Source of the DNA: Clostridia bacterium
GTDB taxonomy: Bacteria > Bacillota > Clostridia > Oscillospirales > Acutalibacteraceae
Assembly (NCBI GenBank): GCA_017465825.1
Contig: JAFTVI010000025.1
Span: 1-46,431, forward strand
DNA: 46,431 bases
Direction of reading: 5' to 3'
How positions within the stretch are numbered: the stretch's first letter is position 1; the number at the start of each line of letters is the position of its first letter. Made by a program: the position numbers and the translations under genes. This document shows, one piece after another, positions 2,537-46,116 of the stretch. The notes beneath the pieces are model-generated. The model did not search any database. It was not told the origin of the DNA and was given only the letters and a program-made list of their open reading frames with translations.

Positions 2537-3376
2537 CTATGCAGAACCGACGCATTCATTTAAAATGACCGGAGAGATGGTCGTTTTCGGTATACGTACA
2601 ACATACTCGAAATAATTTTCTGTTTCAAGCTGTTCCGCAACCGCCTTAACACCGGCTCTGTGCATAGTGTCTACCGCGTGGTTGAGTGTGTTTACTAATA
2701 TTTTAATATCCTTGAGTTTTATAAATTTTGGCTTGGCAGAAGATAAAAGCGAATCTATATAGTTCTCTGTTTCATTCACATCTAAGCTGTTGTCTATAAT
2801 ATAATTAAGAATTTCAATCTGAGTTTTTTCATCTGAAATACAAAGTAACGGTTTTATCTGTTTTTCGGTTAAAGAATAAGAGCTTATAATTAACCGTACT
2901 TTTTTACTTAAATTGATAAATCTGAGCTTGTCCTTAATATAAATTACTGATTTTTCCGTTATTTCGGATAATTGATTGATGGTAAAGCCAAATTTTTTAA
3001 TAACATAATTATAAAAATCAGCTTCTTCAAGAAAATCAAGGTCTGCACGCTGAAGATTTTCCGTTACAGCAAACGCAGCACATTGTTCGTCTGAAACAGA
3101 CATAACAATACAGGGAACACTTATAAGACCAGCCATCACAGCCGCCCTGAGCCTGCGTTCTCCGGAAATAAGCTCATAGCCGTCGTTATTCTTTCTTACA
3201 ATCAAAGGCTGAATAATTCCGTATTTTTTAATTGAATCAACAAGACCTTCAAGCTCGGATAAATTGAAGTTTTTTCTTAAACATACCGGATTCGGTTTGA
3301 TGATTTCACAGGGGAGCAAAACAACTGAACCGACACATTTGTATTTTACCGAAGAATTCATCAATAACATCACCAA
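2537..3376 (-). CDS. parB: Chromosome-partitioning protein ParB (Spo0J type)
   Basis: A 279-residue ParB/Spo0J family protein that loads at parS and slides as a CTP-dependent clamp. The N-domain has the CTP-binding motif SGERRLRAA (71-79) and ENLQRADL (106-113). A helix-turn-helix domain follows (about 128-170), then a short C-terminal dimer domain. The two parS sites nearby match ParB rather than Noc, whose site is different. No parA/soj gene adjoins it in this window, although ParA usually does. Start choice is uncertain: AAGGA precedes in-frame TTG (3376), GTG (3373) and ATG (3370) by 6, 9 and 12 bp, and another ATG is at 3361. Downstream of rsmG with a 111-bp gap. Confidence 0.9.
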   Translation of the reverse strand: MVMLLMNSSVKYKCVGSVVLLPCEIIKPNPVCLRKNFNLSELEGLVDSIKKYGIIQPLIVRKNNDGYELISGERRLRAAVMAGLISVPCIVMSVSDEQCAAFAVTENLQRADLDFLEEADFYNYVIKKFGFTINQLSEITEKSVIYIKDKLRFINLSKKVRLIISSYSLTEKQIKPLLCISDEKTQIEILNYIIDNSLDVNETENYIDSLLSSAKPKFIKLKDIKILVNTLNHAVDTMHRAGVKAVAEQLETENYFEYVVRIPKTTISPVILNECVGSA

Positions 3377-4455: not shown

Positions 4456-5781
4456 ATGGAGTCATTTAAAGAAGTATGGGAGCAAGTGCTCGAATACTGC
4501 AAAGGTGTAATGTCTGAAACAAGCTTCAAGACTTGGATATATAAAATTGAAGATCCCGAATTCGTTGACAGCAAGGTTGTAATATATTCACAATCCGAAT
4601 TCAGAAATTCAATATTAAAAGACAATTTCAGTGAGGTCCTTAAAGAAGCATTTGAAGCAGTTCTGGGAATTGCCCTTAACATAGAATTCAGAGTTAAGTT
4701 AAAAGAAGAAGAAATTACGGAAGAAAGCAAAGAGGAAGTACAGCACGTAGTACCGAAGGATGCATATTCGGATTATAATTTTGACAATTTCATCGTAGGC
4801 TCATCAAACAGACTCGCTCACGCCGCATCCTGGAGAGTGGCAACATCGGATTTAGGCTCTGTTTACAATCCTTTGTTTATTTACGGAAACTCAGGTCTTG
4901 GCAAAACCCACCTTGTTATGGCTATAAGAAACGAGCTTAAAAGAAGATATAAGGATATAAATATCGTTTATACTACAAGTGAAAATTTCCTTAATGAGTT
5001 CATTTCCTGCATCAATATTGCAGATAACATCCGTTTCAGAGAAAAATACAGAAACGCTGATGCACTGTTTATTGATGACATTCAGTTTTTTAAGAAAAAG
5101 GAATCAACGCAGGAAGAATTCTTCCACACCTTCAACGAGCTTATTAATTCAAGCAAGCAGATCGTTATCACCTCCGACAGACCGCCAAAAGAAATAGAAG
5201 ACCTTGATGACAGAATAAAAACAAGATTCGAAAGCGGTCTTATTGCCGATATTCAGCCTCCAGAGATTGAGACCCGTATGGCAATTATAATGCAGAAGGC
5301 TCAGGAGAGTAATTTAAAACTGTCCACACAGATGGTAAATTACATAGCGGAAAAAATAAAGGAAAACGTCCGTCAAATAGAAGGTACTATCAACAAAATC
5401 GCCGCAATGCAGTCACTTTACGGTATAGAACCCACAATGGGCAGTATTCAGCAGATTATTAAAGATATTGAAACCGATACAAGGCCTACCTCTGTGTTAG
5501 TAGACGAAATTATAGAAAGTGTCGCCGATAAATACGATATTTCAAAATCAGATATCGTATCCGAAAAAAGAAACGCAAATATTTCACTTGCAAGAAACGT
5601 TGCAATGTACGTAATAAGAGAAATCACAGGTCTTTCACTGGAAAATATCGGCAACAAATTCGGCGGTAAAAAGCACTCAACCGTAAAACACTCTATTGAT
5701 ACCGTGCTTGAAAAAATGGCTCACGATATAAAATTCAAAAATTCAGTTAACAATATAATCAAGCAGTTCGGTAACAAATAA
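4456..5781 (+). CDS. dnaA: Replication initiator DnaA
   Basis: A 441-residue initiator with all four domains: helicase-interaction domain I (1-80), a short linker, an AAA+ ATPase domain with Walker A GNSGLGKTH (about 143-151), Walker B LFIDDIQF (about 203-210) and an arginine-finger region, then a C-terminal DNA-binding domain. The recognition helix reads GGKKHSTVKHS where most DnaA proteins have GG(R/K)DHTTVxHA. The usual base-contacting Asp (E. coli Asp433) is therefore Lys, and the following Thr is Ser. The neighbouring origin lacks canonical boxes, which fits an altered DNA specificity (inference). GAGAGGAA precedes the ATG. Confidence 0.97.
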   Translation: MESFKEVWEQVLEYCKGVMSETSFKTWIYKIEDPEFVDSKVVIYSQSEFRNSILKDNFSEVLKEAFEAVLGIALNIEFRVKLKEEEITEESKEEVQHVVPKDAYSDYNFDNFIVGSSNRLAHAASWRVATSDLGSVYNPLFIYGNSGLGKTHLVMAIRNELKRRYKDINIVYTTSENFLNEFISCINIADNIRFREKYRNADALFIDDIQFFKKKESTQEEFFHTFNELINSSKQIVITSDRPPKEIEDLDDRIKTRFESGLIADIQPPEIETRMAIIMQKAQESNLKLSTQMVNYIAEKIKENVRQIEGTINKIAAMQSLYGIEPTMGSIQQIIKDIETDTRPTSVLVDEIIESVADKYDISKSDIVSEKRNANISLARNVAMYVIREITGLSLENIGNKFGGKKHSTVKHSIDTVLEKMAHDIKFKNSVNNIIKQFGNK

Positions 5782-6044
5782 AGTTTTGAAAAAGTTTTGA
5801 ACTTTAAACATAAAAGTTTTAAACAGTTTCTACATTTTATTTATTTTCTGTTTTAGAATTATACTTTTAAACAGGAAACAGTTACTGTTATAAACATTAT
5901 CTGTATATAAAAAAATCAAGCAGAATCAACACTTAAAATAGTTTTGAACGGTTTGAACACACCCTACTACTAATACTACTATATTAAAGTATAGTTATGT
6001 TATGTAAAACAATTCGGCAAAACTAAAAATTGAAAAGAAGGGAG
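5782..6044. other. oriC: Chromosome replication origin (oriC), dnaA-dnaN spacer
   Basis: The spacer is very AT-rich and non-coding. It contains at least eight copies of a 9-mer close to TTTTRAACA, at 5784, 5795, 5802, 5817, 5865, 5888, 5942 and 5951. All lie on the same strand, and the 5888 copy reads TTATAAACA. They resemble but do not match the DnaA box TTATCCACA. The last two are head to tail and abut a short C-rich tract (5960-5964) and a DnaA-trio element. An AT-rich stretch (5982-6010) follows and would be the unwinding region. The layout mirrors the Bacillus subtilis basal unwinding system. Confidence 0.85.
5964..5981. other. DnaA-trio element of the origin
   Basis: The top strand reads CTACTACTAATACTACTA, six triplets. 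Five are CTA, giving 3'-GAT-5' on the partner strand, and one is ATA. The B. subtilis trio tract is CTACTATTACTTCTACTA. It lies 4 bp after the last 9-mer repeat, on the correct side for DnaA to spread onto a single strand. Confidence 0.85.
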
Positions 6045-6092
6045 ATGTGCGGTAACATACAATGTAGAAAACCGCACGGTCACTTGAAATGA
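6045..6092 (+). promoter_or_regulatory. Leader mini-ORF and hairpin before dnaN
   Basis: The only strong Shine-Dalgarno sequence before dnaN (AAGAAGGGAG, 6035-6044) is 45 bp upstream and abuts an ATG. That ATG opens a 15-codon frame (6045-6092) whose TGA overlaps the dnaN ATG as ATGA. Inside it, GTGCGGT (6047-6053) and ACCGCAC (6071-6077) form a perfect 7-bp stem with a 17-nt loop. dnaN itself has no ribosome-binding site directly before its ATG. Either translational coupling from the mini-ORF, or folding that brings the upstream site closer, could explain dnaN translation. Both are inferences. Confidence 0.55.
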
Positions 6093-7189
6093 AAATAATA
6101 TGCAATACTTCCATTCTTGCTGAAGCGGCGTCAAACGTACAGAAAGCCGTTATGACCAAAACAACTATGCCCATTCTTGAGGGTATACTTTTCACTACTG
6201 AGGAAAACGGCGTCAAACTTACGGGCTATGACCTTGAAATAGGTATTGAAACAGTTGTTGAGGCGGATGTTATAGAGGAAGGCTCTGTAATACTCAATGC
6301 AAAAACCTTTTGCGATATTATAAGACATATTCCCTATGACAAAGTAATATTTGAAACCGACGATAAGCTTCAGTGCAAAATTTACTGCGGAGATATTGAA
6401 TATTATATGACAGGTATCAATCCTAAGGATTATCCTGAGCTTCCCATAATCATAAACGGCAAAAATATTGAGCTTTCACAGAAAGTGCTCAAGGATATGA
6501 TCAAAAAAACCATATTCTCCGTTGCTGTCAATGACGTAAGAGTTATTCACAAGGGTATAAAATTTGAAATCAGACCCGGTGAAATCAGACTTGTTGCTAT
6601 TGACTCTCACCGAATTGCCGTAAGAAAAGAATTTATAGAATATAACGATGAGGAGCTTAACTTTGTTGTTCCCTCAAAAACAATGAGCGAAATTATGAAG
6701 CTCATTCCCGATGAGGATACATTCATTAAAATCGGTCTCGGCAGAAGACATATTCTTTTTGAAATCAACGGATATACTATCATATCAAGGCTTCTTGAAG
6801 GCGAATTTATGAAGTATGAGTCCATTATTCCTCAGACATTCAACACTGTTGTAAGAGCAAAATCAAAAAATCTTATTGAATGTATCGAGCGTGTATCACT
6901 TATTATTACAGACCGCTTCAAAGGCCCTCTCAAGCTTGAATTCAATAACGATGAATTGAGAATTTCCGCCGCAACTGCATTGGGTATTGCAAACGATAAG
7001 CTGGATGTATCAATTGACGGCAATTCCATTGAAATCGGTATTCAGTCAAGATATATTCTTGATGCGTTGAGAGCAAGTGAAGAAGAGGAAGTTTTAATCA
7101 ATATGGTAAATCCTCTGTCACCTGTCTGTATCGTACCCACTACCGGTAATTCATTCCTTTATCTCATTTTGCCGGTAAGATTAACATAA
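6089..7189 (+). CDS. dnaN: DNA polymerase III sliding clamp (beta subunit)
   Basis: A 366-residue beta clamp, the usual family length, with three repeated domains. It forms a dimeric ring that tethers the replicase and other factors to DNA. The start MKIICNTSILAEAASNVQKA aligns with the normal family N-terminus, including the TMPILEGILF segment, and the protein ends in the typical (P)VR(L)T tail. The start at 6089 is therefore secure from homology although it lacks a local ribosome-binding site. It lies 307 bp after dnaA across the origin and leads the yaaA-recF-remB-gyrBA cluster. Confidence 0.97.
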   Translation: MKIICNTSILAEAASNVQKAVMTKTTMPILEGILFTTEENGVKLTGYDLEIGIETVVEADVIEEGSVILNAKTFCDIIRHIPYDKVIFETDDKLQCKIYCGDIEYYMTGINPKDYPELPIIINGKNIELSQKVLKDMIKKTIFSVAVNDVRVIHKGIKFEIRPGEIRLVAIDSHRIAVRKEFIEYNDEELNFVVPSKTMSEIMKLIPDEDTFIKIGLGRRHILFEINGYTIISRLLEGEFMKYESIIPQTFNTVVRAKSKNLIECIERVSLIITDRFKGPLKLEFNNDELRISAATALGIANDKLDVSIDGNSIEIGIQSRYILDALRASEEEEVLINMVNPLSPVCIVPTTGNSFLYLILPVRLT

Positions 7190-45763: not shown

Positions 45764-46116
45764 GGGGATGAAAGGATTTCGACGGGGGTTTTGAACCTCG
45801 GTAAGCGAGCAGAGGTGCGGTACCGCTTTAAAAATCGCAAGTTTATTAAAAATAAACGACAACAATAAAACTGTTTTAGCAGCTGCTTAATAGCTGCCGT
45901 CTTGCCTGAGAGGACTGCGGCTCGGGACTAAGGCGTCGATTAGCAGTGAACGTGAACGGGTGAGCGTCTCCGTAACCCGTCAGGCATAACGGAGCTGTCC
46001 GATTGTAAGCCTGCCGACAGGCGTGCAAAAGGAGAGATTTAGTTTATCGGCTACGCTCGTAGAAAGCTGTGGGAATGAATTTTCGGACGCGGTTTCGATT
46101 ACCGCCATCTCCACCA
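45764..46116 (+). ncRNA. ssrA: Transfer-messenger RNA (tmRNA)
   Basis: A 353-nt tmRNA. The 5' GGGGATG pairs with the 3' CATCTCC to form the acceptor stem (one G-U pair), and ACCA is encoded at the end (46113-46116). The TTTCGAC near the 5' end and GGTTTCGATTACC near the 3' end give the tRNA-like domain. The tag frame most likely resumes at GCA 45837 and ends at TAA 45888-45890, encoding ASLLKINDNNKTVLAAA (17 residues) with a second stop (TAG) directly after. The hydrophobic LAAA end fits protease tags. Pseudoknot stems follow. It releases ribosomes stalled on broken mRNA together with SmpB. Confidence 0.96.

Follow-up and report, generated by a model that had tools for sequence, protein, structure and literature searches.

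The window analysed here, a stretch of 46,431 nucleotides from the assembly of a Clostridia bacterium, holds the usual neighbourhood of a chromosomal replication origin: rsmG on the minus strand, dnaA, an intergenic spacer, dnaN and a recF-like gene. The dnaA gene (4456-5781, plus strand) is intact and encodes a protein of 441 residues with both the AAA+ domain and the C-terminal helix-turn-helix of DnaA; the Pfam profiles Bac_DnaA (217.3 bits) and Bac_DnaA_C (87.9 bits) match it above their cut-offs, and DnaA_N is matched as well. Bac_DnaA_C has no other match in the 2.2 Mb assembly (rated 87% complete). The spacer (5782-6088, 307 bases) is bounded by dnaN (6089-7189, plus strand), which we named from its position. 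Elsewhere in the window are a ParB family gene near the origin (2537-3376, minus strand), a tmRNA gene (45764-46116, plus strand) and a 350-residue protein (1386-2438) with weak, sub-cut-off matches to STAND/AAA NTPase families.

The start of the DnaA recognition helix reads GGKKHSTVKHS (5662-5694, plus strand). The GGxxHxTV motif aligns without gaps to B. subtilis DnaA (8btg), with the second Lys (codon 5671-5673) falling on the Asp that in Firmicutes has been equated with E. coli Asp433 (PMC7561715). Together with Ser at 435 (codon 5677-5679), the window DnaA has Lys433, His434 and Ser435 where the reading residues would be Asp433-His434-Thr435, which bears out both substitutions proposed in an earlier, sequence-only reading of this DNA. 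As described in PMC7561715, Arg399, Pro423, Asp433, His434, Thr435 and His439 are conserved among Firmicutes and E. coli, and the canonical origin of C. difficile and other Firmicutes likewise lies between dnaA and dnaN with boxes and DnaA-trios; the window's family departs from it at 433 and 435.

Candidate DnaA boxes in the dnaA-dnaN spacer

The spacer had been read as lacking canonical DnaA boxes, and a search for the canonical TTATCCACA that allows one mismatch finds nothing in it; the looser TTATNCACA, again with up to one mismatch, finds two sites, TTATAAACA and TTATATACA. The eight same-strand copies close to TTTTRAACA that had been noted are recovered as eight plus-strand sites with at most one mismatch, with none on the minus strand of the spacer. 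A first-order Markov model gives a mean of 0.92 such plus-strand sites, and none of 400 shuffles reaches eight; only two of the eight are exact, however, and two overlap each other. From the dnaA side, pattern search places variant candidate boxes, all on the plus strand, at 5784-5792 (TTTTGAAAA), 5795-5803 (TTTTGAACT), 5802-5810 (CTTTAAACA, sharing two bases with the preceding one), 5817-5825 and 5865-5873 (both TTTTAAACA) and 5888-5896 (TTATAAACA). These are followed by a head-to-tail pair with a distal box at 5942-5950 (TTTTGAACG) and a trio-proximal box at 5951-5959 (GTTTGAACA). In all eight, position 5 is a purine (A or G) and position 6 is A, and none is of the Epsilonproteobacterial type with T at position 5 and the core TTCAC.

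The pair does lie beside DnaA-trios, as had been claimed: its end is 5 nt before a plus-strand trio run at 5965-5982 (TACTACTAATACTACTAT), the likely start of unwinding. The register is that of the relatives, in which the box and the trios are 5 nt apart in 57 of 121 loci with Asp or His433, seven of ten with Asn433 and six of 12 with Lys, Gln, Ser or Thr433; the 5-nt gap is the commonest distance in Asp/His433 relatives too. The arrangement resembles the B. subtilis-type basal unwinding system, in which tandem co-directional boxes stand a few bases before the DnaA-trios in the dnaA-dnaN spacer (PMC10721633, PMC8287927). It differs from that system in having Lys at residue 433 and in the consensus box of the window's genus, TTTTGAACA, which departs from TTATCCACA at positions 3, 5 and 6. 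A AGTTATGTTATGTA-like stretch right after the trios (approximately 5994-6010) was also seen by eye to recur in same-genus origins.

Exact TTTTGAACA is absent from the whole window. A dnaA match was found in ten of the 11 same-genus genomes searched. Besides the window, eight of these (L003-L010), with 73-78% DnaA identity to it, share the GGKKHSTVKHS helix and carry a number of TTTTGAACA or TTTTAAACA sites at the origin, with exact TTTTGAACA in all eight; TTTCTACA or TTTTCTACA is also present in some loci of the genus. One further locus labelled as the same genus (L011, genome G006) has a DnaA only 50% identical to that of the window, with the helix KTHSTVMHS, which may reflect contamination or gene replacement.

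Residue 433 covaries with box positions 6 and 5

Spacers were gathered from genomes scanned at the level of the family (200 and 398), order (394), class (391) and phylum (398), together with 80 named loci. The 383 records (the window and L001-L382) gave 318 distinct spacers once we had dropped 18 records without a parsed DnaA, four copies of the window, 28 repeat spacers and 15 spacers shorter than 60 nt (two with Asn433, one with His433 and 12 with Asp433); nine loci in which no dnaN start was found were read for 400 nt. Residue 433, highly conserved according to the literature, is variable in the window's order: the 318 loci comprise 239 with Asp at this position, 31 with His, 22 with Asn, 16 with Lys, five with Thr, three with Ser and two with Gln. 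The 76 named loci that were kept account for 70 with Asp, two each with Asn and His, one with Ser (Hippea, L084) and one with Thr (L088). A profile built on Lys/Gln/Ser/Thr433 helices served to rank the matches of the class and phylum scans, and only the top ones were fetched, so that less common cases could have escaped; among the loci examined from these top-ranked matches none outside the order has Lys, Gln, Ser or Thr at 433, and the 45 non-named loci outside the order in our table, themselves top matches, comprise 44 with Asp433 and one with His433.

Both strands of each spacer were searched for TTWTNNACA, which is found in all but 24 of the 318, and the sites were grouped by residue 433. 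C at position 6 (hereafter C6) occurs in 356 of 706 sites of Asp433 loci and 47 of 92 of His433 loci; the corresponding counts are 2/79 for Asn, 6/90 for Lys, 4/16 for Thr, 0/8 for Ser and 0/10 for Gln. At position 5 the ratio of G to C is 24:438 with Asp, 4:48 with His, 9:37 with Asn, 37:8 with Lys, 8:3 with Thr, 3:0 with Ser and 4:0 with Gln, and 42 of the Lys433 sites have A; Lys, Gln, Ser and Thr433 go with purines rather than C at this position. The classical TTWTCCACA is found in 138 of 239 Asp433 and 21 of 31 His433 loci and in none of the other 48 (Asn, Lys, Gln, Ser or Thr433), while TTWTGAACA is found in 12 of the 16 Lys433 loci and six of the 239 Asp433 loci. The family comparison that the sequence-only reading had called for is in line with its proposal: TTWTCCACA, sought as the sign of canonical boxes alongside the same helix, is in none of the 16 Lys433 loci. 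Four Lys433 loci, the window among them, lack TTWTGAACA, and five of the 16 have one or two TTWTNCACA sites.

The proposal of a joint change in box and helix is therefore supported by covariation with residue 433, albeit in a narrower form. The box positions that covary are 6, and then 5, rather than 3. T at position 3 (TTTTCCACA, TTTTCAACA) and Ser435 are both common in Asp433 relatives within the order and are therefore not part of the switch. The association with Lys holds, but Lys is only one of several substitutions, with Asn, Gln, Ser and Thr showing related behaviour and His behaving like Asp.

The main exception to a simple rule is a genus with the helix KKHSTV(I/L)YS (g58), which has mixed boxes (TTTTGAACA, TTTTAAACA and TTTTCTACA), with TTTTCTACA near the trios. 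These mixed boxes, along with the TTTCTACA and TTTTCTACA sites in the window's genus, imply that G at position 5 is no strict consequence of Lys433. Further, the Thr433 locus L088 retains C6, with the box TTATGCACA. Two other variations of the helix were observed. In five loci of one family (f1: L113, L121, L126, L127 and L147), His-Tyr replaces Asp433-His434 (RHYST); these DnaA proteins nevertheless go with boxes that have C or T at position 5 and, as a class, show no loss of C6. In L263, five residues are inserted ahead of GKNHST in the helix-turn-helix.

The mixed boxes, and the fact that several boxes in the window itself are degenerate, might be taken to mean that DnaA with Lys433 has merely stopped reading positions 5 and 6, leaving the boxes to drift there. 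We regard such a loss of specificity as rather unlikely. The Lys433 sites have GA or AA at positions 5-6 in 68 of 90 cases and CC in none, a distribution far from random in which the commonest box of the relatives is missing. An array of such sites outside the origin (see below) also has its sequence and spacing kept across eight species.

Base composition, kinship and the register of the boxes

A different objection is that AT-rich drift has altered the boxes and, separately, the Lys and Asn codons, so that composition and kinship alone produce the pattern with specificity unchanged. There are grounds for taking this seriously: C6 among Asp/His433 loci is predicted by spacer GC, and the median spacer GC is 0.27 for Lys433 loci versus 0.35 for Asp433 loci. 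In a plain non-phylogenetic scan of alignment columns, residue 433 ranks second for C6 and second for purine at position 5. A clade scan run naively over 107 columns of domain IV finds many that correlate with C6, gives other columns smaller p-values for it than residue 433, and puts residue 433 itself at p=0.042 for the control position 3. We read these column-scan signals as GC and kinship; GC is a real confounder, and GC matching and a trio-anchored test were therefore added.

To account for kinship, clades were collapsed on a tree built from the AAA+ domain only and each was compared with its five nearest Asp/His loci. C6 is below that of the neighbours in all 14 non-Asp/His clades (Wilcoxon p=1.2e-4), a 15th (L084) having too few sites; purine at position 5 is higher in 11 clades and lower in two. 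When the neighbours are also matched for GC, C6 is lower in 12 of the 14 clades, higher in one and tied in one (p=0.0024). In the same GC-matched analysis G5 exceeds C5 in all six informative Lys/Gln/Ser/Thr clades (the seventh has neither), with the neighbour pools of these clades holding 0-1 G5 versus 7-13 C5. If Asn loci are pooled with Asp and His as the GC-matched neighbours, C6 is lower in just five of seven Lys/Gln/Ser/Thr clades (p=0.078), as expected if the loss of C6 had already happened at an Asn stage. Strict independent pairs on the tree left 2-9 starred pairs that could be used, of which hardly any or none pointed the other way, and never so for position 6; the median p of 0.125-0.25 is not significant, the comparison being underpowered because most pairs do not differ.

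The second approach dispensed with a search pattern and took 9-mers at a fixed distance from the DnaA-trios in the 176 of 318 loci with a clear trio run, comparing, at the genus level and with the tree not modelled, 13 genera (only two of them Lys433) with 127. Of the nine positions only position 6 shifts, with the observed difference reached in 0 of 2000 permutations for the proximal box and 3 of 2000 for the distal one; the next smallest position is reached in 146 of 2000.

Taken with these tests, composition and kinship alone appear an unlikely account. Spacer GC predicts C6 in 32.6 of 68 sites for Asn433 and 33.3 of 75 for Lys433, but two and six are observed. G5 in place of C5 is GC-neutral, C8 and the other trio-anchored positions are unshifted, and the His433 loci, which are AT-rich too (median 0.31), nevertheless retain C6. 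Genome-wide word counts were tried as another diagnostic and set aside: in the window's assembly TTTTGAACA occurs 54 times versus 21 for the reversed word, and this is uninformative because TTWTCMACA is in still larger excess (399 versus 96).

A second array of the variant sites

Clusters of TTTTGAACA are also found at two further intergenic places in the window's own genome. One is an array downstream of spoIIR, a gene identified by the Pfam profile Spore_II_R (L384 1982-2046, G000:C29:66481-66545; also in L387-L393 and L402). Of the 11 same-genus genomes searched, spoIIR was found in eight, and each of the eight has four to seven TTWTNNACA sites within 200 nt. The eight regions of 200 nt hold 47 such sites versus 5.3 expected; 25 are TTWTGAACA, the array being mostly of this type and TTWTAAACA, with spacing conserved in most. 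Such sites also occur downstream of spoIIR in the sister genus g108, whose helix reads KKHSTIKHS, while the 24 other family loci that could be parsed each have at most one site there (two loci were unparsed). The array may be DnaA-titrating or regulatory. Repeated GTAAAG...CTTTAC inverted repeats flank it and are conserved in the genus (L386-L393, 300 nt downstream of spoIIR). The other cluster comprises three exact TTTTGAACA copies in 86 bases (L383 2772-2857, G000:C12) upstream of an OGG_N/HhH-GPD glycosylase gene.

The presence of the same repeats in an array away from the origin, flanked by other inverted repeats, raises the prospect that they belong to a different regulator whose sites are superimposed on the origin, with DnaA using few of them. 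This strikes us as very improbable: the origin repeats stand in the register of the boxes of Asp/His433 relatives relative to the trios, and their sequence tracks the DnaA helix in several clades.

A likely stepwise change of DnaA specificity

We think it quite probable that the DNA specificity of DnaA has changed at a chromosomal origin of otherwise ordinary type, with Lys433 matched by boxes lacking C6. Two co-directional boxes would feed DnaA, which presumably binds the variant sites, onto the trios, as at other origins of the type. The boxes would have moved from TTWTC(C/A)ACA to TTWT(G/A)AACA, that is, with C6 gone and C5 replaced by a purine. The path was likely stepwise. Asp433 goes with both TTTTCCACA and TTTTCAACA, relatives with Asn433 lack C6 and have TTTTCAACA or TTTCGACA boxes, and loci with Lys, Ser, Thr or Gln433 have TTTTGAACA and TTTTAAACA; TTTTCAACA would thus be a possible bridge, letting protein and sites change one after another. 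In a tree of 57 rows, some forks of which are weakly supported, the window's Lys433 clade falls within a group in which some genera combine Asn433 with TTTTCAACA boxes. The same group holds a genus with Ser433 whose boxes are TTTTGAACA and TTTTAAACA, with TTTCGACA beside the trios. Judged from these placements, the tree suggests a course from Asp through Asn to Lys or Ser with TTTTCAACA as the shared bridge. Other Lys, Thr and Gln433 lineages (g58, g98 and g89) are placed apart.

In mechanistic terms, residue 433, alone or with 438 and 439, would read positions 5 and 6 directly, with a hydrogen-bond acceptor replaced by a donor as C gives way to A or G. The Asp433 contact has been assigned to box position 7 (PMC8235120), and position 5 is described as unimportant in E. 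coli (PMC5043019). The covariation lies at position 6, one base pair off position 7, and direct reading by residue 433 is plausible.

The general idea of a box changing with the helix has precedents. In Epsilonproteobacteria a T5 box with the TTCAC core has been proposed to accompany an altered helix 5 in domain IV; in that group residues 435, 438 and 439 vary while the 433-434 dyad is described as highly conservative (PMC5043019), whereas the window's order changes 433 itself, together with positions 6 and 5. Thermotoga maritima has, by alignment, Ser at 433 and a non-canonical 12-mer box, AAACCTACCACC (PMC4285127, PMC10316083), but its whole recognition helix differs (RSHPVVV) and its box is by eye unrelated to TTTTGAACA. 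The most distant 9-mer among those described as studied, that of pylori, has two mismatches. The sequence-only reading knew of no earlier description of the present case, and in the open-licence PMC literature we likewise found none of Lys433 with changed boxes or of TTTTGAACA as a DnaA box.

The initiator DnaA and the 9-base box are regarded as close to universal, and programs that predict origins look for TTATCCACA-like sites. The evidence leaves us evenly divided on a broader proposition, namely that a readable recognition code links residue 433 to base pairs 6 and 5 of the box and has been rewritten repeatedly within one order. C6 or A6 would then belong to Asp or His, A6 or G6 to Asn, and a purine at position 5 with A6 to Lys, Ser, Thr or Gln. 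In such a code the lineages combining Asn433 and TTTTCAACA would be living intermediates, showing how specificity can change in an essential initiator and its dispersed sites without losing replication. How an essential initiator changes its recognition sequence when many sites must follow is a long-standing question, and it becomes directly testable in a group where this residue and the box letters that match it have shifted jointly on several occasions and where intermediates exist. Such a system would give mutually exclusive pairs of DnaA and origin, and would make origins easier to predict in gut bacteria that are abundant and for the most part uncultured.
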